From: a virus
Direction: 5' to 3' (one strand)
Length of the DNA stretch: 30,809 nucleotides
IMG/VR virus record: IMGVR_UViG_3300008453_000819
Span: 1 to 30,809 of that record
In this document: in pieces, positions 3,174-23,689 of the stretch
How the letters are laid out: every line of letters begins with the position of its first letter
Numbering within the stretch: position 1 is the stretch's first letter
Position numbers and translations under genes: made by a program
The notes under the pieces: generated by a model
The model's input: the letters and a program-made list of their open reading frames with translations, nothing else
Told to the model about the DNA's origin: nothing
Databases searched by the model: none

Positions 3174-6100
3174 ATGGCATATTTCGGTAAGAAACCAGAA
3201 AGACTTCGTGGTAAGGTTTACGATTATAATAATCAGGTTGGAGTAGCTGGATCCGTTTTAGTTTCTACAGGATCTTCTGTAGAATGGACATCTAGTAGTA
3301 GTGTTGTATCGCTAGGAATAGGAACAAATAGAAATGCTGAATTTCAGCAAGTTAATGTTTCAGGAGTAACCACTTCAGCAGGTGGTTTTGTAGGTAATTT
3401 AACTGGAACTGCAACAACAGCAACAAATCTTTCTGATGCTGCAAATATTACTACTGGAACTATTAATGCCTCTAGATTATCTGGATCTTATGATATTGAT
3501 ATAAGTGGCAATGCTGCAACTGCAGATTATGCTGATGTATCGGGTATTTCTACATATTCCACATCAGCAGGTATAGCAACTTATGCAACTACTGCGGGTA
3601 TTGCAACAGCACTTCAGAACTCAAGAACATTTGAAATTACAGGAGACGTTGTTGCATCAGCGATCAGTTTTGATGGAACTGGAAATGTTTCATTAGCGGC
3701 AACTATTCAACCAAATTCAGTTGGATTGGGAACCGATACGACTGGAGATTATGTAAGAGATATTACAGGAACTGCAAATCAAATTACCATAACTGGTGGC
3801 ACTGGTGAAGGTTCGACACCAACATTAAGTATTCCAAATCAATTCACAGTACCACAGGATATAGAAGTTACAAGAGATCTTCAAGTCAATCGTAATTTAA
3901 ATGTTAACGGAAACATTACTATTGGTGGAACAACAGCGACATTACTTACAAGTGAATTAAAAATTTATGATCCAGATATTGTTCTTGGTTTTAGAACTGA
4001 TGCATTTGGTAATGATGCTTCTAATGATAATACTGCAAATCATGGTGGTATTGCTGTTGCATCAACTGAAGGTTCTCCACTAGTTAATCTTTTTATTGCT
4101 GGTATTGAAACTACGCCTACCACATATAAAAAGATTATGTGGTTCAAGGCGGGTGAATTTTCTGGACTTGGAACTGATGCTTGGTTATCAAACTATGCCG
4201 TTGGTATTGGTTCTACGCAAGTTCCTAATGGTGTTAGACTTGCTGCTGGAGCAGTCCAATTTACTGAAAGAGATTTAATTTCTGTTAGAAATATTAATTC
4301 ATCCGGTATTATTACTTCGGATAGTGGGATTAGTGTATCTAATGGCGGGATTAATATAACAGGTGTCTCTACATTTGTTGATAGTGTTAAATTTAATTCA
4401 ACTTTAAAAGATTATTTTGGTAATGTTGGTGCAGCTTCTTCTGTTTTAATTTCAACGGGGTCTGGAATTAAATGGGAATCAATTGAAACTGCGGCTTTAC
4501 AAGGTGCTGAAGGTGCTCAAGGAACTACAGGTGCTGAAGGTGCTCAAGGTGCTGTAGGGGATCAAGGTGCTCAAGGTGCTCAAGGATCTACAGGTGCTCA
4601 AGGTGCTCAAGGATCTACAGGTGCTGAAGGTGCTCAAGGAACCGCTGGTGCTCAAGGAACCGCTGGTGCTCAAGGAACCGCTGGTGCTCAAGGAACCGCT
4701 GGTGCTCAAGGATCTACAGGTGCTGAAGGTGCTCAAGGTGCTGTAGGGGATCAAGGTGCTCAAGGTGCTCAAGGAACCGCTGGTGCTCAAGGAACTACAG
4801 GTGCTGAAGGTGCTCAAGGTGCTCAAGGATCTACAGGTGCTCAAGGTGCTCAAGGATCTACAGGTGCTCAAGGTGCTCAAGGATCTACAGGTGCTCAAGG
4901 TGCTCAAGGATCTACAGGTGCTGAAGGTGCTCAAGGTGCTGTAGGGGATCAAGGTGCTCAAGGATCTACAGGTGCTCAAGGTGCTCAAGGAACCGCTGGT
5001 GCTCAAGGTGCTGAAGGTGCTCAAGGTGCTCAAGGAACCGCTGGTGCTCAAGGTGCTGAAGGTGCTCAAGGTTCCACAGGTGCTACTGGTGCTCAAGGAG
5101 TTCAGGGTGCTGATGGAAACTTTGGTGGTGCTACCTTCGACTATACATTTTCTACAAATACTACCGATAGCGACCCAGGAACAGGAACTCTGAAGTTTAG
5201 TGAGTCTCCTTTCTCTGGAGCACTAAACCTTTATATTGATTATACTGACGACAATGGAACTGATATTCAGTCGTTCTTGAGAACTATTGATGACTCTACC
5301 TCTACTATTAAGGGTCACTTTAGAATTTCAAACCGACTTGATGCCTCAGACTTTGCTCTGTTTACTATTTCTTCAGTAACAGAGAACACTGGATATTTTG
5401 ATGTAAGTTCTTCATACGTTTCAGGAAGTGCTACATCATTCTCCAATGGTGAAGACGTTATTATTACTTTTGCTAGAACTGGTGATAAGGGTGATACTGG
5501 AGCACAAGGAACCGCTGGTGCTCAAGGTTCCACAGGTGCTACTGGTGCTCAAGGTCCTCAAGGAACCGCTGGTGCTGAAGGTGCTCAAGGTGCTCAAGGA
5601 ACCGCTGGTGCTGAAGGTGCTCAAGGTGCTCAAGGAACCGCTGGTGCTGAAGGTGCTCAAGGAACCGCTGGTGCTCAAGGTGCTGTAGGGGATCAAGGTG
5701 CTCAAGGAACCGCTGGTGCTCAAGGAACCGCTGGTGCTCAAGGAACCGCTGGTGCTCAAGGTCCTCAAGGAACCGCTGGTGCTGAAGGTGCTCAAGGTGC
5801 TCAAGGCGCCACTGGATCTGGTGCTCAAGGTGCTGATGGAGCACAAGGTTCAATAGGTGCCACCGGTGCTCAAGGTTCTACTGGTGTCACTGGTGCTCAA
5901 GGTTCTACTGGTGCTCAAGGTTCCACAGGTGTCACTGGAGCACAAGGTAATGCTGGTGCCCAAGGTTCCACAGGTGCTACCGGTGCACAAGGTTCTATAG
6001 GTGCTCAAGGTTCCACAGGTTCCACAGGTGCTCAAGGTGCTGATGGAGCACAAGGTTCCACAGGTGCCACTGGAGCACAAGGTTCCACAGGTGTCACTGG

Positions 6101-9100
6101 AGCACAAGGTAATGCTGGTGCCCAAGGTTCTACTGGTTCTATAGGTGCTCAAGGTTCCACAGGTTCCACAGGTGCTCAAGGTGCTGATGGAGCACAAGGA
6201 TCTACAGGCTCTACAGGTGCTCAAGGTACAGCAGGAGCACAAGGATCTCAAGGAACTGCTGGTGCACAAGGTACGGCAGGAGCACAAGGATCTACAGGTT
6301 CTACAGGTGCTCAAGGTGCTGATGGAAACTTTGGTGGTGCTGCTTTTGATTACACATTTGATAGTTCAACAGTAGATAGCGATCCAACACAAGGTAAATT
6401 AAGATTAAATCAAGTTGGAATAACAACAGCAAGTTATCTTTATATTCATAATGATGATGATAATAATGTAGATATTACAAGTTATTTACAAACAATTGAT
6501 GATTCAACTTCTAATATTAAGGGACATTTCACAATTGCACAAAAAGGAAATACTGCATATTTTGGATTATTTTCAATTGTAGGTCTTCATACTGAATATA
6601 CAAATTACTTTGCAGTTCCTATTTCTTATGTTTCTGGTATTACGACATCATTTACCAATAACCTTGATGTAATTATCACATTTGCTAGAACTGGTGATAA
6701 AGGAGATACAGGTGCACAAGGTTCTACCGGTTCCACTGGAGCACAAGGATCTACAGGTTCCACTGGAGCACAAGGATCTACAGGTTCCACTGGAGCACAA
6801 GGAACTGCTGGTGCTCAAGGTGCTGATGGATCTCAAGGTTCTACTGGTGTCACCGGTGCTCAAGGTTCCACAGGTGCCACTGGTGCTCAAGGTTCCACAG
6901 GTGCCACAGGTGCTCAAGGTGCTGATGGAGCACAAGGTTCAATAGGTGCCACCGGTGCTCAAGGTTCTACTGGTGTCACTGGTGCTCAAGGTTCTACTGG
7001 TGCTCAAGGTGCTGAAGGTGCTGAAGGTGCTCAGGGTGCTGAAGGTGCTCAAGGAACCGCTGGTGCTCAAGGTTCCACAGGTGCTCAAGGTGCTGAAGGT
7101 GCTCAGGGTGCTGAAGGTGCTCAAGGAACCGCTGGTGCTCAAGGAACTGCTGGTGCTCAAGGATCTACAGGTGCTGAAGGTGCTCAAGGATCTACAGGTG
7201 CTGAAGGTGCTCAAGGAACCGCTGGTGCTCAAGGAACTGCTGGTGCTCAAGGTTCCACAGGTGCTACTGGTGCTGAAGGTGCTCAAGGAACCGCTGGTGC
7301 TCAAGGAACTGCTGGTGCTCAAGGTTCCACAGGTGCTACTGGTGCTGAAGGTGCTCAAGGTTCCACAGGTGCTACTGGTGCTGAAGGTGCTCAAGGAACC
7401 GCTGGTGCTCAAGGAACTGCTGGTGCTCAAGGTGCACAGGGTGCTGTTGGAGCACAAGGAGCTGATGGTAACTTCGGTGGCGCTACATTTGACTATACTT
7501 TCTCTACAAACATTACTGCTAGTGACCCAGGAACTGGAATACTAAAGCTCAATAACGCTACAGTTTCATCTGCTACGGTTCTATACATTGATGATGTTGA
7601 CGATAACTCTACAGATATTCAGTCATTCTTAAGAACTATTGATGACTCTACTTCTACTATTAAGGGTCACTTTAGAATTTCTAATAGACTGAATGCTGAC
7701 GACTTTGCTCTGTTCACTATCTCTAGTGTGACTGAGAACACTGGATACTTCACAGTCAGTTGTGGATATGTATCTGGTAGTGCTTCTTCATTCAGTGATA
7801 GTGAAGACGTTATCATCACCTTTGCTAGGACTGGTGATAAAGGTGATGTAGGTGCTCAAGGATCTACAGGTGCTCAAGGTGCTCAAGGAACCGCTGGTGC
7901 TGAAGGTGCTCAAGGTGCTCAAGGTGCCACTGGATCTGGTGCTCAAGGTGCTCAGGGATCTACAGGTGCTCAAGGATCTATAGGTGCTCAAGGTGCCACT
8001 GGATCTGGTGCTCAAGGTGCTCAAGGAACCGCTGGTGCTGAAGGTGCTCAAGGTGCTCAAGGATCTACAGGTGCTCAAGGTGCCACTGGATCTGGTGCTC
8101 AAGGTGCTCAGGGATCTACAGGTGCTCAAGGATCTATAGGTGCTCAAGGATCTACAGGTACTCAAGGTGCTCAAGGATCTACAGGTGCTCAAGGTGCCAC
8201 TGGATCTGGTGCTCAAGGTGCTCAAGGAACCGCTGGTGCTGAAGGTGCTCAAGGTGCTCAAGGACCTGCAGGAGAGGGTGGCAGTGGATCTGGTGCTCAA
8301 GGTGCTCAAGGTGCTACTGGTGCTCAAGGTTTAGTAGGAGCACAAGGATCTACAGGTGCTCAAGGTGCTCAAGGATCTACAGGTGCTCAAGGATCTACAG
8401 GTGCTCAAGGTGCCACTGGATCTGGTGCTCAAGGATCTACAGGTGCTACTGGTGCTCAAGGATCTACAGGTGCTCAAGGTGCCACTGGATCTGGTGCTCA
8501 AGGATCTACAGGTGCTACTGGTGCTCAAGGATCTACAGGTGCTACTGGTGCTCAAGGTGCTCAAGGACCTGCAGGAGAGGGTGGCAGTGGATCTGGTGCT
8601 CAAGGTGCTCAAGGTGCTCAAGGTGCTCAAGGATCTACAGGTGCTCAAGGATCTACAGGTACTCAAGGTGCTCAAGGATCTACAGGTGCTCAAGGATCTA
8701 CAGGTGCTCAAGGTGCCACTGGATCTGGTGCTCAAGGTGCTCAAGGAACCGCTGGTGCTACTGGTGCTCAAGGTGCTCAAGGACCTGCAGGAGGGGGTGT
8801 CGGTGGCGGTGGAGAATTCATTTTAAGTGGTTCTTGTGGGACCATTTACAGTTCAGAAGCAGGAACTGGTGGCACTGGACTCAATAATTTCTTTGCTGGT
8901 TATTGTGCTGGTCAATCCAACACCAGTGGATCCTTTAACTTCTTTGCTGGACAATGTGCTGGTGCCTGTAACACCACTGGATCCAATAACAACTTTATTG
9001 GACAAGGTGCTGGTGCCTGTAACACCACTGGATCCTTTAACTTCTTTGCTGGACAATGTGCTGGTGCCTGTAACACCACTGGATCCAATAACAACTTTAT

Positions 9101-10514
9101 TGGACAAGGTGCTGGTGCCTGTAACACCACTGGATCCTTCAACAACTTCATTGGACAATGTGCTGGTCGATGCAACAGCACTGGAACTAACAACAACTTC
9201 TTTGGACGATTTGCTGGATTCCGCAACACCATTGGAAACTACAACAACTTCATTGGAAATTATGCTGGTCGATACAACAGCACTGGAACTAACAACAACT
9301 TCATTGGATTTAGTGCTGGTTATAGCAACACCACTGGAACCTGCAACAACTTCATTGGACGATGTGCTGGTTTCAGCAACACCACTGGATCCAATAACAA
9401 CTTCATTGGAGCTTATACTGGTCAATCCAACATCGGTGGAGCCAACAACAACTTCTTTGGATCTAATGCTGGTCGATGCAACACCAGTGGAACTCATAAC
9501 TTCTTTGCTGGACAATGTGCTGGTTTCAGCAACACCAGTGGATCCTACAACAACTTCTTTGGACGATTTGCTGGTCGATGCAACACCAGTGGAGCCAACA
9601 ACAACTTCTTTGGATCTAATGCTGGTCAATCCAACACCATTGGAACCTGCAACAACTTCATTGGACGACTTGCTGGATCCAACAACACCACTGGATCCAA
9701 TAACACCTTCATTGGAGCTTATGCTGGTTTCGGCAACACCACTGGATCCAATAACAACTTTATTGGATTTAGTGCTGGTTACTGCAACACCGGTGGATCC
9801 TTTAACTTCTTTGCTGGACGATGTGCTGGTTTCAGCAACACCACTGGATCCAATAACAACTTTATTGGATTTAGTGCCGGTCAATGCAACACCACTGGAG
9901 CCTTTAACAACTTCATTGGACAATGTGCTGGATTCCGCAACACCAGTGGAACCTTTAACATCTTCATTGGAGCTTATACTGGTATCTGCAACACCAGTGG
10001 ATGCAACAACACCTTTATTGGACGTAATGCTGGTTACTGCAACACCACTGGAACTAATAATCTTTTCTTCGGACAAAATGCTGGAACGGGTTCTACAGGA
10101 CTTTGTAATGTTACAACAGAATCCAATTACATCATTATGGGTAACAACAGTCATGCATGTGCTCTTATCCAGGTTGCTTGGACAGCAGTTTCTGATTGCC
10201 GTGACAAGTGCATTTTTGGACCTGTTCCTCATGGTAGAGGTTTCCTTCATAATATTACTCCAATTGAATATGCCTTTAAGGACCGTGATACTGATGAATT
10301 AAAGGACATAGAAGGAAAGCGTAGGTATGGATTCAGTGCCCAGAATGTCCTTGAAGCAGAAGGAGAAAATCCTGTTATTGTAGACTCAAATGATCCAGAG
10401 CATCTCAAACTGACATCAGATCATATGATTCCAGTTCTTGTAAATGCAGTGAAGGAATTATCAGAGGAAGTTGATGTATTAAAATCAAGATTGGATATAT
10501 TGGAAAATTCGTGA
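3174..10514 (+). CDS. giant collagen-like adhesin/tail fiber with S74-type chaperone end
   Basis: 2446 residues. Residues 1-440 are a Gly/Ser/Thr-rich fiber N-terminus with strand-turn repeats. Collagen-like Gly-X-Y shafts occupy about 443-645, 770-1050, 1174-1432 and 1554-1880, dominated by GAQ, GST, GTA and GAE triplets. Between them lie three copies of a domain starting NFGG(A)xFDYTF and ending FARTGDKGD. Residues about 1902-2306 are 24 tandem 17-residue units. The end, from about 2340, matches the peptidase S74 intramolecular chaperone: S-D-x-R-x-K, then T-P-I-E-Y-A-F, then R-Y-G-F-S-A-Q-N-V and a terminal coiled coil. In that family the Ser/Lys pair cuts the chaperone off after trimerisation. 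The product is very probably a trimeric host-binding fiber. Collagen triplets here are almost free of proline. Repeat length may be affected by assembly error. Confidence 0.9.
4502..5106 (+). repeat. collagen-like repeat block 1
   Basis: About 200 residues of uninterrupted Gly-X-Y triplets built from 9-bp DNA words such as GGTGCTCAA, GGATCTACA and GGAACCGCT. Direct copies up to dozens of bases long make it prone to slippage and recombination. Confidence 0.95.
5107..5480 (+). repeat. beta-type interruption domain, copy 1 of 3
   Basis: About 124-residue non-collagen domain ([11 protein letters not shown] to FARTGDKGD) between shafts 1 and 2. It shares the [11 protein letters not shown] and IKGHFRIS segments with the copy at 7462 and is more diverged from the copy at 6321. 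Likely a trimerisation or ligand-binding knob; function inferred. Confidence 0.9.
5481..6326 (+). repeat. collagen-like repeat block 2
   Basis: About 280 residues of Gly-X-Y triplets, richer in GVT, GAT and GNA than block 1, with a single GSGAQG offset. DNA words are shared with the other blocks. Confidence 0.95.
6321..6692 (+). repeat. beta-type interruption domain, copy 2 of 3 (diverged)
   Basis: Aligns along its whole length with copies 1 and 3 ([29 protein letters not shown]). Many substitutions and a more AT-rich codon choice suggest a different origin or longer divergence. Confidence 0.85.
6693..7470 (+). repeat. collagen-like repeat block 3
   Basis: About 260 residues of Gly-X-Y triplets. 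It contains a near-exact larger repeat of [20 protein letters not shown] with its following triplets, recurring several times between 7020 and 7430. Confidence 0.95.
7462..7832 (+). repeat. beta-type interruption domain, copy 3 of 3
   Basis: Very similar to copy 1 in protein sequence but with many silent differences in DNA. It holds the only cysteine I noticed before the Cys-rich region of the protein (V-S-C-G-Y). Confidence 0.88.
7833..8811 (+). repeat. collagen-like repeat block 4
   Basis: About 325 residues of Gly-X-Y with repeated one-residue phase breaks at GATGSGAQG and two [11 protein letters not shown] breaks. It ends in a Gly-rich hinge ([10 protein letters not shown]) leading to the Cys-rich repeats. 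Confidence 0.95.
8878..10090 (+). repeat. 24 tandem 51-bp units (17-residue Cys-rich repeats)
   Basis: Each unit follows N-N-F-(I/F)-G-x-x-A-G-x-x-N-T-(T/S)-G-(S/T)-x. The period is 51 bp, for example between GGATCC sites at 8928 and 8979. The two x-x pairs vary between a limited set of residue pairs (QC, RC, RF, FS, AY, SN / AC, RC, YC, FS, QS, FR). The rest is nearly fixed. The last unit is degenerate. About two dozen cysteines fall here and just after. Similar NTFIG..AG..NTTG repeats occur before S74 domains in other adhesins; the Cys content is unusual. Confidence 0.92.
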
Positions 10515-14862: not shown

Positions 14863-16224
14863 ATGGCTCTAAACTTTCCAGATAGTCCATCAGTAAATGA
14901 TATTTTTACATCTAGTAACTCCAGATGGATATGGAATGGAACATCTTGGGTTAGGCAGGGAACACCTGGAACTCAAGGTGCTCAAGGATCTACAGGTGCT
15001 CAAGGTGCTCAAGGATCTACAGGTGCTCAAGGTGCTCAAGGTGCTGTAGGGGATCAAGGTGCTCAAGGATCTACAGGTGCTGAAGGTGCTCAAGGTGCTC
15101 AAGGTTCAGTAGGAGCACAAGGATCTACAGGTGTACAAGGCACAGTTGGTGCTCAAGGTTCAGTAGGAGCACAAGGATCTACAGGTGCTCAAGGTGCTCA
15201 AGGTGCTCAAGGTGCTCAAGGTGCTCAAGGTGCTCAAGGAACCGCAGGTACATCAGGATCTCAAGGTACTATAGGTGCTCAAGGTGCTCAAGGTGCTACT
15301 GGTGCTCAAGGAACCGCAGGTGCATCAGGATCTCAAGGTTCCACAGGTGCTCAAGGTGATGTAGGTGCTCAAGGTGCTCAAGGTGATGTAGGTGCTCAAG
15401 GATCTACAGGTGTACAAGGCACAGTTGGTGCTCAAGGTTCCACAGGTGCTCAAGGTGCTACTGGTGCTCAAGGTGCTACTGGTGCTCAAGGTTCAGTAGG
15501 AGCACAAGGATCTACAGGTGCTCAAGGTGCTCAAGGTTCCACAGGTGCTCAAGGTGCTCAAGGTTCCACAGGTGCTCAAGGTGCTCAAGGAACCGCAGGT
15601 ACATCAGGATCTCAAGGTACTATAGGTGCTCAAGGTGCTCAAGGATCTACAGGTACTCAAGGTGCTCAAGGATCTACAGGTGCTCAAGGTGCTGTAGGTG
15701 CACAGGGTGCTGTTGGATCTCAAGGTACTTCTGGCGCTATAACTTTTGCATCAGGCACTTTGATGTTATTCCAACAGACAGCAGCACCTACTGGTTGGAC
15801 CAAACAAACAACTCATAATAATAAAGCACTTAGAGTAGTAAGTGGATCTGCAAGTTCTGGTGGTACGACCGCATTTACAAGTGTATTTGCTTCTAGGACA
15901 CCATCTGGTTCTGTTTCGGTTTCTGGATCTAACTCTGGCGGTTCTGTAAGTAATACTACACTAACCACTTCAGAGATGCCATCCCACAACCACTCATCAA
16001 CATCTGGGCAATTTTTGCTTGATAATGGTGGAGGTGGTTCTCAAGGATTTGCCGGTGGTGGTACAATTGTTGGTCTCAGCCCAAATACCACATCAACTGG
16101 TGGTGGAAACTCTCACGGACACGGATTTACTAATCCATCTTGGTCTGGTTCAGCATCTTTTACAGGTACAGCAATGGACTTTGCTGTCCAATATGTTGAC
16201 TTAATTATTGCTTCTAAAGACTAA
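14863..16224 (+). CDS. collagen-like tail fiber with tail-collar-type tip, 453 aa
   Basis: The N-terminus has [26 protein letters not shown], a connector I know from cyanophage fibers. Residues about 33-290 are Gly-X-Y triplets ([12 protein letters not shown]). The C-terminal 160 residues begin with [17 protein letters not shown], typical of phage tail-collar and gp12/gp37-like tips. Two His motifs follow, S-H-N-H at about 374-377 and S-H-G-H at about 416-419. In T4 long-fiber tips and gp12 such H-x-H pairs bind metal in a trimeric needle; the same is inferred here. The tip probably contacts the host. No S74 chaperone is present; the chaperone-type gene at 16591 may serve it. Confidence 0.88.
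14959..15735 (+). repeat. collagen-like repeat block of second fiber
   Basis: About 258 residues of Gly-X-Y encoded by the same 9-bp DNA words as the giant adhesin. Identical runs are long enough for recombination between the two genes. One larger internal repeat ([19 protein letters not shown]) occurs twice. Confidence 0.95.
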
Positions 16225-17456: not shown

Positions 17457-18689
17457 ATGGATTATAAGTTCAGCATTATTTCGCCATCCCACAAGAACAC
17501 TCCCTACCTTCAAGAACTCTACGAAAGTCTGTGTGCTCAGACTTATGAGAACTGGGAGTGGATTTTGTGGTTGAATGGTAAGTTTAACCGTAGCAAACTC
17601 TCTCCAGAAATTGAGAATGATGGGAGGGTAAAGATCTACGAGTGTAATGAAAATAATCCTAACGTTGGGTTTCACAAGAGCAAGGCATTCCATCTTGGTT
17701 CTGGTGATGTCCTTGTGGAAGTTGACCATGATGATATGATCACACCAGACTGTCTGGAAGAACTTAACAAGGCATACCAAGACGAGAGTGTTGGTTTTGT
17801 GTACAGTGATGTTGCTGTGTATGATGATAACTTTGTTCCTTATAATGAGCAGCATGGTTGGTCTTACTACTTCTACAATTTTCGTGGTAAAGACCGTTAT
17901 GTGATGAACTCTTGGCGTCCAACTAGTCAGGCATTATCATTCATCTGGTATTCTCCTGACCATGTTAGATCTTGGAGAAGGAGTGTTTATCAATCAATCG
18001 GTGGGCATAATGTTCAATTAAGTATATGTGATGACCACGAGTTGATGATAAGAACCTATCTGAATACGAAGATGTATCATATTCAAAAACCTCTTTACAT
18101 CTATAGGGTTTATGGTGACAATACTTACCTAGAAAGAAATGCTCAAATTCAAACTAAGACCGTAGACCTTTATTATGAGTATGGATATCAACTTGCAGAG
18201 AAAGATGCAGAAGACCGTGGACTTCTGAAAGTTGATATTGGTGGTGGACTTTATCCTCGTCCTGGTTATGTAACCATTGACCAGGAGGGTGCTGATATTA
18301 CTTGTGACCTGAATGATGGCATCCCACTTCCTGATAATAGTGTTGGTGTTTTGAATGCAAGTCATGTTCTAGAGCACCTGAGAGACCCTGTTAAGTCAAT
18401 GAGAGAAATTCATCGGGTCCTTGCACACGGTGGTTGGGCAATGATTGAGGTTCCTTCTACTGATGGTAGGGGTGCATTCCAAGACCCAACTCACGTTAGC
18501 TTCTGGAATGAACATAGTTTCTGGTATTATACCAACAAACAGCTAGCAAACTTCATTAGAAACTATGATATTCGCTTTCAAACGTATCGGTTAAATACTT
18601 GGGAAATGGCACCACATATTCCTGTTGTCACTGCTTGGTTGACAGCAATTAAGGATGAAGAACGTTTCCCTGGAATTCTTGCAATTTAA
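17457..18689 (+). CDS. glycosyltransferase 2 - methyltransferase fusion, 410 aa
   Basis: Residues 1 to about 240 are a GT2 domain: F-S-I-I-S-P-S-H-K-N, then V-E-V-D-H-D-D-M near residues 89-96 (DxD), and D-D-H-E-L-M-I-R near residue 193. From about residue 257 comes a class I methyltransferase: K-V-D-I-G-G-G (SAM loop), G-Y-V-T-I-D, then L-N-A-S-H-V-L-E-H-L and V-L-A-H-G-G-W as in Methyltransf_11. It acts on a glycan in the cytosol; the two steps are fused as in the gene at 11193, although the methyltransferase types differ. It opens the second cassette under a strong promoter, 5 nt before glf. Confidence 0.85.
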   Translation: MDYKFSIISPSHKNTPYLQELYESLCAQTYENWEWILWLNGKFNRSKLSPEIENDGRVKIYECNENNPNVGFHKSKAFHLGSGDVLVEVDHDDMITPDCLEELNKAYQDESVGFVYSDVAVYDDNFVPYNEQHGWSYYFYNFRGKDRYVMNSWRPTSQALSFIWYSPDHVRSWRRSVYQSIGGHNVQLSICDDHELMIRTYLNTKMYHIQKPLYIYRVYGDNTYLERNAQIQTKTVDLYYEYGYQLAEKDAEDRGLLKVDIGGGLYPRPGYVTIDQEGADITCDLNDGIPLPDNSVGVLNASHVLEHLRDPVKSMREIHRVLAHGGWAMIEVPSTDGRGAFQDPTHVSFWNEHSFWYYTNKQLANFIRNYDIRFQTYRLNTWEMAPHIPVVTAWLTAIKDEERFPGILAI

Positions 18690-18694
18690 TTTTT

Positions 18695-19720
18695 ATGGCA
18701 CTTGCATATGTAATCGGCGCAGGAACAGCAGGTTCAACTGCCGCTAGAATTTTAAAAGATAATGGGTGGGATGTAGAAGTATTTGAAACTAGATCTTATA
18801 TTTCTGGTAATTGCTACGACTATATTGATGAAAAGACCCGTTGTATTGTCCATGCACATGGTCCACACGCAATTCATACTAATAGTGAGAAAGTCTGGAA
18901 CTGGTTGCATCAGTTTTCGGAGTTTAATGATTTCTCAGTCAAGGTCTGGGCAAATACTAAACTGGGTAAAATCCCCATTCCTTATAATGATACGTCTGAT
19001 AGAATTATTGGACGACGACTTTCTGATGAAGAAATTATTGATTTAGTCTTCAGGGATTATTCTGAAAAGATGTGGAATACTCCCTTTGAGGAACTTCCTC
19101 AGAGTATTCTTGCACGACTAGCAGTAAGAAATCCTGGTGAAGAAACTTACTTTGTGAATAACAAGTATCAGGGTCTTCCTAAGTATGGATTTGTTCGGAT
19201 GTTTGAAAACATTCTGGATGGTATCCCCGTTCATTTGGATACACCCAGAGATGAGTGGAGAAAACTGAAAGACAAGTGTGACCTGTTGGTTTATACTGGT
19301 AAGGTTGATAATTACTTTGATTATCAGTTTGGCGAATTAACTTATCGCTCTTTGAATTTTGAACACGTCTATTGCCCTAAAACTCTTTATATTCAACTGA
19401 ATGAATGTAATAAAGAGAATGGATGGAACCGTGCAATTGACCATTCCTACTGGTATAAACAGGATGTAGAAACAACAATTGTCACAAGAGAGTATCCTGT
19501 TCCTCACGTTGATGGTGTGAACAATCCATATTATCCAATGATATTTGGTGAGTATCTCAGTCAGTTCAGACTGTATGAACCTCTGATGCAGGCAGAAAAG
19601 AACACAGTATTCACTGGAAGAACTGCTACTTATGAATATCTGACGATTGATGAAACCATCATCAAGACTGCTAAAAAACTGAAGAAACTTGGACTATCTG
19701 ATTCTATTTTAACGCCATGA
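18695..19720 (+). CDS. glf: UDP-galactopyranose mutase
   Basis: 341-residue FAD enzyme that turns UDP-galactopyranose into UDP-galactofuranose. The FAD dinucleotide motif G-A-G-T-A-G-S is at residues 8-14, with E30 at the end of the second strand. Family marks follow: H-G-P-H-A-I-H-T-N, Y-S-E-K-M-W-N-T-P, Y-Q-G-L-P-K-Y-G-F, Y-T-G-K-V-D-N-Y-F-D-Y, L-T-Y-R-S-L-N-F-E, and F-T-G-R-T-A-T-Y-E-Y near the end. It is slightly shorter than bacterial Glf (about 370-390). It overlaps the following glycosyltransferase by 4 nt, which suggests that enzyme may use UDP-Galf. Confidence 0.92.
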   Translation: MALAYVIGAGTAGSTAARILKDNGWDVEVFETRSYISGNCYDYIDEKTRCIVHAHGPHAIHTNSEKVWNWLHQFSEFNDFSVKVWANTKLGKIPIPYNDTSDRIIGRRLSDEEIIDLVFRDYSEKMWNTPFEELPQSILARLAVRNPGEETYFVNNKYQGLPKYGFVRMFENILDGIPVHLDTPRDEWRKLKDKCDLLVYTGKVDNYFDYQFGELTYRSLNFEHVYCPKTLYIQLNECNKENGWNRAIDHSYWYKQDVETTIVTREYPVPHVDGVNNPYYPMIFGEYLSQFRLYEPLMQAEKNTVFTGRTATYEYLTIDETIIKTAKKLKKLGLSDSILTP

Positions 19721-23005: not shown

Positions 23006-23060
23006 ATAGATACCATTTAGTATCTTATGTTACTGTTTTCACACATATAAGACCTATATA

Positions 23061-23098
23061 GGATGAATAGGGGTATAATAATCCCCTAACGTTCATCC
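23061..23098 (+). promoter_or_regulatory. anti-aptamer hairpin
   Basis: GGATGAA (23061-23067) pairs with TTCATCC (23092-23098), and directly inside it TAGGGG (23068-23073) pairs with CCCCTA (23083-23088). This gives 13 bp with a 3-nt bulge (ACG) on one side. The TTCATCC arm is the strand needed for P1 and P2 of the following aptamer, so the two folds exclude each other. It also ends 1 nt before the start codon at 23100. Confidence 0.65.
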
Positions 23099-23342
23099 TA
23101 TGACTAAAGCACTTTTGCTTTTAGCATGGGTTCCACTTCTTTCTGTTTCAACGCCACGACTTATACAGAATCCATATCCTGTGACTATAAGTTGTGACGC
23201 AGCGTGGGAACTAATGGACATCGTTAAAAACGACGATGTAGTAGACCAAAGAAGAGAAGACCGATTGCTATTAGAACTCCGAAAGGATGTTGTTCAAAGG
23301 TGCTAAAAACTGAATAGGACGCAAGTAAGCCGACTCGGAACG
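23090..23342 (+). promoter_or_regulatory. split glutamine-type aptamer 1 enclosing a 68-codon ORF
   Basis: The 5' half is CGTTCATCC (23090-23098) and the 3' half GACGCAAGTA (23318-23327) to GGAACG (23337-23342). P1 pairs CGTTC with GAACG, and P2 pairs TCCTAT (23096-23101) with ATAGGA (23314-23319). A short CCG-ACT-CGG stem fits P3. The core words match my memory of glnA and Downstream-peptide glutamine riboswitches (CGUUCA, GACGnAAGUA, GGAACG), in which P2 closes a short loop. Here the P2 loop is the 23100-23306 ORF, with its start codon in the P2 arm. Pairing is seen; ligand identity is inferred from the family. Confidence 0.6.
23100..23306 (+). CDS. small two-Cys protein with hydrophobic N-terminus, 68 aa
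   Basis: Residues 4-16 (A-L-L-L-L-A-W-V-P-L-L-S-V) form a hydrophobic segment like a signal peptide or anchor. Residues 30-68 align without gaps to the peptide at 23355: S-C at the start, conserved A, L, V, V, L-x-L-E-(L/I), and a closing Cys. The first and last Cys could form a disulfide. Start codon overlaps the P2 arm of the enclosing aptamer, so its translation may depend on the RNA fold. There is no strong ribosome binding site. Function unknown. Confidence 0.6.
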   Translation: MTKALLLLAWVPLLSVSTPRLIQNPYPVTISCDAAWELMDIVKNDDVVDQRREDRLLLELRKDVVQRC

Positions 23343-23345
23343 GAT

Positions 23346-23517
23346 CGTTCATCTATGGAGCAACTCTTTTTATCTTGCTTACAGGCACAACTTCTCATTA
23401 GTAGAGTTAATGCTAGTAACTTCGTCACTGACCATGAAAAAATTGGTCTCATATTAGAAATTGAACAAGTCACAAAGAAAGGTTGTTTCATAGACGCAAA
23501 AGCCGACTGAAGGAACG
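23346..23517 (+). promoter_or_regulatory. split glutamine-type aptamer 2 enclosing a 51-codon ORF
   Basis: The 5' half is CGTTCATCT (23346-23354) and the 3' half GACGCAAAAGCCGACT (23493-23508) to GGAACG (23512-23517). P1 is CGTTC/GAACG. P2 is TCTATG (23352-23357) with CATAGA (23489-23494). P2 differs in sequence from copy 1 but is again fully complementary, which is covariation within one genome. The start codon of the inner ORF is wholly inside P2, and its last codons are the aptamer 3' core itself. Only 3 nt (GAT) separate it from aptamer 1, so GAACG of copy 1 can also pair with CGTTC of copy 2. Confidence 0.6.
23355..23510 (+). CDS. small two-Cys peptide, 51 aa
   Basis: ATG at 23355 to TGA at 23508-23510. 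Begins MEQLFLSCLQAQLLISRV and ends G-C-F-I-D-A-K-A-D. It has two Cys 36 residues apart in the same spacing as the relative at 23100, and lacks the hydrophobic leader. The terminal D-A-K-A-D is encoded by the conserved aptamer bases, so coding and RNA constraints coincide. I recall short peptides of this type in marine picocyanobacteria and their phages, of unknown role. Confidence 0.6.
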   Translation: MEQLFLSCLQAQLLISRVNASNFVTDHEKIGLILEIEQVTKKGCFIDAKAD

Positions 23518-23551
23518 GGACTAACCATCTCATTTCTTTAGGAGAAAACCA

Positions 23552-23689
23552 ATGTCGAAAGTAGTTTATCGTGGTGCTGAATACGATACCGAAAAGCGTA
23601 TCGCATATCAACAACAGATGATGCAACAACCCCAACAATACAACGAAACCTATCGTGGTGTTAAGTATGTAAAGGAGGGGCACAAATGA
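23552..23689 (+). CDS. small YRG-motif protein (DUF4278-like), 45 aa
   Basis: GGAGAAAACC precedes the ATG. The product has two Y-R-G copies: V-V-Y-R-G-A-E-Y near the start and T-Y-R-G-V-K-Y near the end, with a Gln/Met-rich linker. The L-x-Y-R-G-x-x-Y motif is typical of the short cyanobacterial DUF4278 proteins, whose role is unknown to me. It follows the aptamer pair on the same transcript and overlaps the next gene (ATGA). Confidence 0.65.
   Translation: MSKVVYRGAEYDTEKRIAYQQQMMQQPQQYNETYRGVKYVKEGHK

Follow-up and report, generated by a model that had tools for sequence, protein, structure and literature searches.

Small genes inside the P2 loops of a probable composite glutamine-I-type aptamer of cyanophages

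The DNA analyzed here, called the window, is the whole stretch of 30,809 nt from IMG/VR record IMGVR_UViG_3300008453_000819 (a 30.8-kb virus record), which carries T4-like genes (gp32, ThyX, PhoH-like). At positions 23,090 to 23,517 it holds two consecutive copies of a glutamine riboswitch-like core, each with a small open reading frame (ORF) in the loop of its helix P2. This tandem is probably a single composite aptamer, with an outer helix P1 that we infer. The explanation that we favor, with reasonable but not high confidence, is one glutamine-I-type aptamer with genes in its P2 loops, through which glutamine would act as a see-saw between the nested genes and a gene downstream. The tandem extends far beyond this window, with 241 distinct relatives.

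A reading of the window from its letters, here the sequence-only reading, had proposed two tandem split aptamers. Both core copies were present where it had placed them, CGTTCA 23090–23095 with GACGCAAGTAAGCCGACTCGGAACG 23318–23342 and CGTTCA 23346–23351 with GACGCAAAAGCCGACTGAAGGAACG 23493–23517, separated by a gap of 3 nt. The window has two occurrences of the 3′ core pattern, and 100 shuffled versions of it had none. The arms TCCTAT/ATAGGA (copy 1) and TCTATG/CATAGA (copy 2) were also found. The 68-codon ORF A (23100–23306) and the 51-codon ORF B (23355–23510) start in P2 arms, as proposed. ORF B is not wholly between the arms, because it extends across the 3′ P2 arm to a stop within the core. 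There, GAC GCA AAA GCC GAC TGA is at once aptamer core and the ORF B codons D-A-K-A-D-stop. The repeat, the P2 helices and the ORFs of that proposal stand; the copies are probably not separate aptamers, as the inter-copy P3, the split E-loop and the folding energy, described below, suggest. The parts assigned to the element are:

23090–23094, + strand: 5′ strand of the outer P1, CGUUC of copy 1; partner 23513–23517, probability 0.76–0.93 in the unconstrained fold
23096–23101, + strand: 5′ arm of P2a, UCCUAU, holding the A and U of the ORF A start codon; partner 23314–23319, by covariation
23100–23306, + strand: ORF A, 68 aa, two cysteines, hydrophobic N-terminus, in the P2a loop; family median ratio of nonsynonymous to synonymous substitutions (dN/dS) 0.23
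23314–23319, + strand: 3′ arm of P2a, AUAGGA; probability 0.80–0.99, and covariation
23320–23327, + strand: 5′ half of the E-loop and junction, CGCAAGUA, from copy 1; by comparison with the crystal RNA sequence (PMC5393176)
23328–23335, + strand: 5′ strand of P3, AGCCGACU; partner 23501–23508, six standard pairs and two A-C mismatches; by inter-copy covariation
23338–23342, + strand: 5′ strand of the inner P1, GAACG; partner 23346–23350 over the loop GAU 23343–23345; by RNAalifold and linker lengths
23346–23350, + strand: 3′ strand of the inner P1, CGUUC of copy 2; by RNAalifold and linker lengths
23352–23360, + strand: 5′ arm of P2b, UCUAUGGAG, holding the complete ORF B start codon; partner 23486–23494, probability 0.92–1.00
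23355–23510, + strand: ORF B, 51 aa, two cysteines, final codons forming aptamer core; MEx family, median dN/dS 0.27
23486–23494, + strand: 3′ arm of P2b, UUUCAUAGA; by covariation and pair probability
23495–23500, + strand: CGCAAA, strand of the inner junction
23501–23508, + strand: 3′ strand of P3, AGCCGACU of copy 2; by inter-copy covariation
23509–23512, + strand: GAAG, 3′ half of the E-loop, from copy 2; by comparison with the crystal RNA
23513–23517, + strand: 3′ strand of the outer P1, GAACG; by folding energy and pair probability

Relatives were gathered by searching viral contigs for the 3′ core (at least 119 stretches), by a scan for variant P3 segments (at least 120 stretches) and by a protein scan with ORF A (246 relatives found, 80 kept); all counts among them are counts in samples. 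The searches demanded CGTTCA and GGAACG, the P1 sequence. From 289 extracted tandems, 241 distinct ones were left once identical ones had been removed. The tandem counts omit 26 first copies without a second copy matching the regular expression, several of which have variant cores such as CGCACACGACT. The strict expression failed in 16 of the 80 ORF A relatives, and 13 of these (all but L166–L168) were inspected by eye: ten had an aptamer with a variant core, two ended at a contig edge (L178, L180) and one had lost the aptamer (L192). Two tandems without a 5′ partner were omitted from the loop-ORF analysis. An earlier set of 95 long copies forms part of the 259 long loops treated below, and the covariation alignment A1 covers 35 of 36 short tandems (L296 omitted).

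The case for one RNA begins with P3. Copy 1 reads AGCCGACx after CGNAAGUA and copy 2 reads yGCCGACU after CGNAA(N), with x and y complementary. This variable end pair was kept without exception, in the first set of 141 distinct tandems and in all 149 with 9-nt segments in the full set (U-A 112, G-C 18, A-U 18, U-G 1). The pair adjoining the E-loop was also kept in 149/149 (A-U 143, G-C 3, C-G 2, G-U 1). Among tandems with the 6-nt form, all five pairs were kept in 80/80 (AGUCG/CGACU 73, AGUCA/UGACU 4, GGUCG/CGACU 2, AGUCG/CGGCU 1); the 7-nt form pairs GGACGG with CCGCC and has a bulge. Segment lengths were equal between the copies in 239 of the 241 tandems. In the 35 aligned short tandems, inter-copy P3 had 16 double-changed cells versus 4.2 in shuffles (reached in 0 of 500), more than in any slid version, and three P3 pairs with a double change versus 1.9 (15/500 shuffles). 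A local hairpin P3 within each copy was rejected because covariation for it was absent from the same alignment. As judged from these covariations, P3 is formed between copy 1 and copy 2.

In S-SRM01, a P3 pair has changed from A-U to C-G, by which the ORF B stop TGA has become GGA and the protein is five residues longer (DAKAD-GRNAL). Read at the sequence level, the RNA pair is preserved there at the cost of the usual ORF B stop. A triple unit was seen in L049 (~6500–6850): an orphan first copy of the 9-nt type, an ORF-bearing AGTCA copy and a hairpin TGACT copy, with P3 types matching solely between the last two.

The E-loop is divided in the same way. In the crystallized glutamine-I RNA, the E-loop strands GAAGUAA and UGAAG flank P3 (PMC5393176). 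With a pattern demanding neither half, 162 phage cores were found: 57 had AAGTA only, 105 had AAGG only and none had both. Throughout the 241 tandems, which were selected by an expression requiring AAGTA in the first copy and AAGG in the second, copy 1 lacks GAAG or AAAG before GAACG and copy 2 lacks AAGTA. Of 31 host loci, 26 fitted a one-copy pattern demanding CGGAAGTA, the segment and GAAG, that is, both E-loop halves; a local P3 of at least 3 bp was present in 25 of these 26, and the other five loci fell outside the expression. The two phage copies combined give the canonical order P1-P2-AAGUA-P3-GAAG-P1.

Linker lengths and folding energy point the same way. Among 145 distinct tandems, found with patterns that did not include the linker, it was 3 nt long in 82, 4 nt in 55, 5–6 nt in six and longer in two, and never shorter than 3 nt, which fits the minimum for a hairpin loop closed by the inner P1. 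These 145 are the unbiased set, since the full-set linker counts include loci whose patterns demanded 3–5 nt. In two loci with linkers of 44 and 21 nt (L164, L103) the linker has complementary arms, as if a hairpin extended the inner P1 loop. RNAalifold found outer and inner P1 unprompted in the short tandems. With P3 excluded both ways, the composite fold had a lower energy than the side-by-side fold in 36/36 short tandems; outer P1 was in the minimum free energy structure of 35/36, with a mean probability of 0.90 versus 0.04 for own-copy P1, and inner P1 had a mean probability of 0.60 in short relatives. The unconstrained fold of the window gave 0.76–0.93 for outer P1 and at most 0.015 for own-copy P1. 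Across 203 ORF-bearing tandems, the means were 0.71–0.87 and 0.00–0.13.

These data bear directly on a different arrangement, in which two glutamine-I aptamers lie side by side, each with its own P1 and an ORF in its P2 loop, and the P3 strands kiss. The repeat order and the identical P1 sequences would permit an own-copy P1, and P3 covariation alone would suit a kissing helix as well. Moreover, 157 doublet glutamine riboswitches have been counted and read as pseudo-cooperative (PMC9481103). However, half of the E-loop is absent from each copy (0/162 cores with both), programs that leave a kissing P3 out give own-copy P1 a probability of 0.015 in the window and a mean of 0.04 across short relatives, and the arrangement offers no clear reason for linkers never shorter than 3 nt. 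We regard it as very unlikely.

Pairing of the P2 arms across each ORF is real, since the arms co-vary within a copy beyond every one of 2000 shuffles. In long copies, pairing counted from the base of the helix averages 5.33 bp for the copy-1 arms (43 distinct pairs; shuffles: mean 3.82, maximum 4.63) and 5.72 bp for the copy-2 arms (96 distinct pairs; mean 4.11, maximum 4.51). The 35 short tandems had double changes in 4/4 counted P2a pairs and 4/5 P2b pairs. Lack of compensatory change had been named beforehand as what would refute the sequence-only reading; it was looked for in P2, and compensatory change was found. In 47 distinct ORF/ORF tandems, helices of at least 5 bp were formed within copies in 35 and 42 cases, by the copy-1 5′ arm with the copy-2 3′ arm in 10, and by the copy-1 3′ arm with the copy-2 5′ arm in just one. 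The last pairing belongs to an alternative that had been offered alongside the tandem, a contiguous, circularly permuted aptamer at 23314–23357 with P2 made from those two arms. Its inner GAACG-GAT-CGTTC stem does exist and is compatible with the composite. Its P2 shows no arm covariation and falls far short of the 35 and 42 within copies and the 10 for the fourth pairing, and this version was refuted; we give it practically no chance.

The P2 loops of the 241 tandems (copy 1/copy 2) were hairpin/ORF in 112, ORF/ORF in 56, hairpin/hairpin in 36, ORF/hairpin in 35 and unassigned in two. There were 259 long loops, 91 in copy 1 and 168 in copy 2. An ORF spanned 257 of them (starts: 255 ATG, one GTG, one TTG), a start codon lay 3–6 nt after CGTTCA in 257, and both features coincided in 256, in agreement with the earlier claim that the start codon lies in the P2 arm. 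The exceptions were L229, whose start lies at 10 nt, L268, in which the first ATG is frameshifted and the frame opens a few bases on, and the triple unit of L049. Copy-2 ORFs stopped 13 or 16 bases into the core in 160/168 loops. Copy-1 ORFs stopped 9 bases into the core in 23/91 (ending in GRK-stop); 67 of the remaining 68 stopped 2–15 bases before it.

Three families of nested ORFs are under purifying selection, with median dN/dS values of 0.23, 0.26 and 0.27. Exactly two cysteines were present in 255 of 256 nested proteins. The AlphaFold model of ORF B, made with 17 sequences, consists of two helices (mean predicted local distance difference test score 83, predicted template modeling score 0.60). 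Four nested proteins were compared with Pfam, which gave no family, and with PHROGs, where ORF A was without a family and the other three belonged to families of unknown function. A tblastn search of phage isolates with ORF A gave no match at E 0.01. By hhalign, the A_other and B families matched with 95.5% probability; for the ORF A (MTK) family, homology with the other nested families was not established (31% and 1.5%).

That the nested ORFs are unregulated passengers in dispensable P2 loops, with an aptamer serving the downstream gene only, is unlikely in our view, and it has several observations on its side. ORFs are also carried in the loops of group I introns. All four combinations of ORF presence and absence occur (112, 56, 36 and 35 of 241). 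One locus has a copy-1-type protein with a DAKAD end within the copy-2 loop (L100), so genes appear to move between loops. Another (L192, 2490–2980) retains both ORFs although the aptamer pieces between and after them are lost; its ORF B ends without DAKAD, which suggests that this tail is imposed by the RNA, and a terminator-like hairpin follows. A Shine-Dalgarno-like motif is present in the linker before 64/167 copy-2 ORFs and 0/90 copy-1 ORFs, counts for which the chance level was not set, so some copy-2 ORFs could initiate in the ordinary way. In the crystallized RNA, loops L2 and L3 were replaced by GAAA and U1A loops (PMC5393176). Passengers would not account for start codons 3–6 nt from P1 in 257/259 long loops, nor for stops at fixed core places in 160/168 copy-2 loops.

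The downstream gene recurs as well. The first Shine-Dalgarno-preceded ATG 3′ of the aptamer opens a YRG protein in 223/241 tandems (34/36 of the hairpin/hairpin type), 29–41 nt past the aptamer in 213 of the 223. In cyanobacteria, DUF4278 spans the N-terminal portion of IF17, the glutamine synthetase inactivating factor, and host genes of the DUF4278 type are preceded by glutamine riboswitches that turn them ON, as reported in PMC6316151. A candidate anti-sequestor was found at the end of the element: the longest complement had a mean of 5.67 versus 4.35 in base shuffles, with CTRAAG/CTTYAG recurring, and in many relatives CTRAAG of copy-2 P3 and E-loop is able to pair with a CTTYAG that precedes the Shine-Dalgarno sequence. 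In the window, this region contains:

23507–23515, + strand: candidate anti-sequestor CUGAAGGAA, possible partner UUUCUUUAG at 23533–23541
23540–23544, + strand: Shine-Dalgarno-like AGGAG of the downstream gene, read from the sequence
23552–23689, + strand: downstream ORF, 45 aa, YRG repeats, DUF4278-like (19.4 bits, below the DUF4278 cut-off of 25.3)

In the mechanism that we propose, CGUUC of copy 1 would pair with GAACG of copy 2 as outer P1, the E-loop would be built from AAGUA of copy 1 and GAAG of copy 2, and P3 would be common to both copies. Within P3, a second, circularly permuted three-way junction would form from the inner P1 hairpin (GAACG-GAU-CGUUC) and P2b. The P2a and P2b loops hold one complete small gene each, with the start in the 5′ P2 arm and the stop at or inside the 3′ arm or the core. 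Binding of glutamine, the presumed ligand, would close P1 and P2 and hide both nested start codons; CUGAAG would be locked in P3 and the E-loop, leaving the downstream Shine-Dalgarno sequence free. Without glutamine, the nested genes would be open and CUGAAG would mask that sequence. The aptamer cannot be closed while a ribosome occupies a nested ORF, which would lead to the see-saw between nested and downstream genes. In the fold of the window, unpaired probabilities were 0.00 for the ORF B AUG and 0.02–0.04 for the A and U of the ORF A AUG. A broader picture, which we entertain only tentatively and would not yet prefer, is a riboswitch built around its own genes: a single glutamine sensor of two half-aptamers with a common helix, and two swappable P2-loop genes with starts in the helix arms and stops in the binding core, with one ligand event shutting both and opening a third, by which the phage would switch between two nitrogen states of the host.

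The same region would also serve a model in which the nested ORFs are leader genes. Translation ending in the core or CUGAAG would melt the RNA and couple the downstream gene on, and glutamine would be secondary. Copy-2 ORFs indeed stop in the segment able to mask the downstream Shine-Dalgarno sequence, and an upstream ORF within the Mycobacterium tuberculosis metE B12 aptamer alters expression (PMC11260477). Against it, hairpin/hairpin relatives, which have no nested ORF at all, retain the core, and 34/36 have the YRG gene; purifying selection on three protein families exceeds what a mere leader would need. We consider the leader model distinctly improbable.

Several observations weigh against the composite and its see-saw. 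Neither the glnA model (RF01739) nor any other Rfam family reached its threshold in the window. P1 was fixed by the searches, so support for the topology comes from the E-loop, the linkers and the folding energy and not from P1 covariation. A scan for the P1 variant AAGTAAGCCGACTCGGAACH gave no stretches and one for AAGCCGACTGAAGGAADG gave four, all apparently unrelated coding sequence; these two were the variants sought. The 3′ core scan fixed GCCGACT in both copies, which makes the constant P3 pairs uninformative there and leaves the end pairs and the other P3 forms as free evidence. The commonest P3 form has two A-C mismatches among eight pairs, further P3 pair types were not in excess (5 versus 4.5; 249/500 shuffles), and P3 had a probability near 0 and inner P1 one of 0.23–0.27 in the energy fold of the window. 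The energy programs cannot score the kissing P3 that side-by-side aptamers would have, and one short tandem (L013) was no more stable than its own shuffles (z −0.86). Neither the shuffle controls nor the counts of changes allow for the relatedness of the sequences, by weights or by a tree. In relatives, start codons were not always fully paired (mean unpaired probability 0.17–0.28), and the anti-sequestor pairing was missing in some. A ribosome that translates ORF B as far as the stop at 23510 could itself expose the downstream Shine-Dalgarno sequence, which would reverse the see-saw. Lastly, copy-2 ORFs outside the MEx family had a dN/dS of 0.62, in a mixed and badly aligned set.

The region matched 139 phage records, all named as Synechococcus, Prochlorococcus, cyanophage or marine viruses. 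Thirteen isolate regions were fetched as best hits, picked non-randomly from 40 listed of the 139; the composite element was present in 13/13 and one or two nested ORFs in 9/13. Of the 12 nested ORFs of these isolates, 11 are annotated as coding sequences with identical coordinates, the exception being in DSL-LC03. The S-CREM1 record annotates a glnA riboswitch at its short-loop form. In genome_contigs, the strict pattern gave three stretches, two in Prochlorococcus-named records and one in a Dehalococcoidia metagenome-assembled genome, which may be phage DNA.

Upstream of the element, two further features were recorded:

23054–23060, + strand: promoter-like motif CTATATA; C[CTA]A[AT]ATA occurs in 147/233 distinct upstreams, mostly 32–36 nt before CGTTCA
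23068–23088, + strand: inverted repeat TAGGGG-TATAATAAT-CCCCTA directly 5′ of the aptamer, with a −10-like TATAAT (23074–23079) in its loop

The first may be a promoter of the late type. For the second, a stem of at least 5 bp was present in 199/233 distinct upstreams versus 12% of base-shuffled ones, with varying arm sequences. ATAGGATGAA (23058–23067) is the perfect complement of TTCATCCTAT (23092–23101), the end of the P1 5′ strand and the P2a 5′ arm; this upstream strand might act as a competitor of the aptamer and conceal the start of ORF A. Such a complement is not general, being found in 5/47 distinct upstreams of TCCTATG-type copies and 6/233 overall. A manA RNA (RF01745) lies close 3′ of the composite in two loci, at 4460–4732 in L119, where a tRNA match follows, and at 1071–1268 in L053. 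Elsewhere, the window contains a 2446-codon ORF (3174–10514, +), whose surroundings include tail-like genes and a protein with collagen repeats (14863–16224), and a protein with glycosyltransferase and methyltransferase domains (17457–18689) that adjoins a UDP-galactopyranose mutase-like gene (18695–19720; Pfam GLF, E 1.2e-43). Weak Rfam matches in the window with E up to 10 (BTnc060, 2dG-I, sR9, MIR6151, freshwater-2) were far below the cut-offs and were taken as chance.

If the composite reading is correct, this riboswitch layout is new: genes would form the aptamer loops, start codons would lie in helix strands and stops in the core. The cyanophage glutamine 'tandems' would then be single RNAs with a swapped third helix, and their cooperativity would have to be modeled otherwise. 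It would also suggest that T4-like cyanophages sense host glutamine, and 'hypothetical proteins' of the model phages P-SSM4 and P-HM2 would gain a common genetic context and a testable control mechanism. In marine and freshwater cyanobacterial viruses, RNA folding could directly hide or expose small loop genes.

Among known systems, glutamine-I is the most directly comparable. As the sequence-only reading had suggested, a relationship to glnA exists: short-loop relatives reached the RF01739 gathering score in 9/15 loci, with one match per locus (35.1–39.4 bits, cut-off 35), and RF01739 was found in 47/244 genomes of the host phylum, with up to 63.3 bits. Shared with the phage element are the order CGUUCA-P2-CG(G/C)AAGUA-P3-GAAGGAACG, the three-way junction, the E-loop and a DUF4278-like gene downstream. 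The strands of the P1/P2/P3 junction (CGUUCA, CGGAAGUA, GAAGGAACG) are all present across both copies and in neither alone, P1 having been demanded; the window has CGCAAGUA where RF01739 has CGGAAGUA. The E-loop GAAGUAA/UGAAG next to P3 occurs as a cross-copy pair only, with CAAGUAA in the window. Glutamine-I aptamers bind L-glutamine, with contacts at C1-G59, G2-C58 and G22 (PMC6698751). The contact nucleotides are present in the window and in 35/35 aligned short tandems, at the outer and inner site, where the search patterns demanded them. Unlike glutamine-I, the phage element has its parts split over two copies, a shared P3, an extra permuted junction and P2-loop genes.

Tandem glnA RNAs were noted by Weinberg in 2010 (PMC2864571). 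The doublets counted in PMC9481103 resemble the phage element in having two consecutive copies and a cyanobacterial or marine origin. They are reported there as separate aptamers, unlike the probable phage composite; by term search, the words 'phage' and 'nested' are absent from the main text of that paper. We found no description in the open literature of ORFs in glutamine aptamers or of a P3 common to tandem copies, and an earlier mention is possible. What appears new here, on the aligned sequences, is the P3 covariation between copies and an E-loop complete only across them. Glutamine-II (RF01704, Downstream-peptide) has a similar CGUUCA ... GGAACG core and a nearby small ORF; unlike the phage element, it is a pseudoknot class with the ORF downstream, and RF01704 had no match in the window (L013 reached 25.5 bits versus a cut-off of 33). 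Group I and II introns and tmRNA also carry an ORF in the loop of a structured RNA; the introns are ribozymes and tmRNA serves trans-translation, and none is a ligand switch. To our knowledge, none of them has a start codon sequestered by an aptamer helix, unlike the phage element.

The closest precedent is uMetE2, an upstream ORF in the P9–P10 extension of the M. tuberculosis metE B12 riboswitch, as described in PMC11260477. It is translated and, like the phage nested genes, lies within an extension of an aptamer, and its translation should be incompatible with the ligand-induced fold. It has ~15 codons and limited conservation and is known from one locus, whereas the phage nested genes have ~50–70 codons, are conserved, start in core helices and occupy two loops in many phages.

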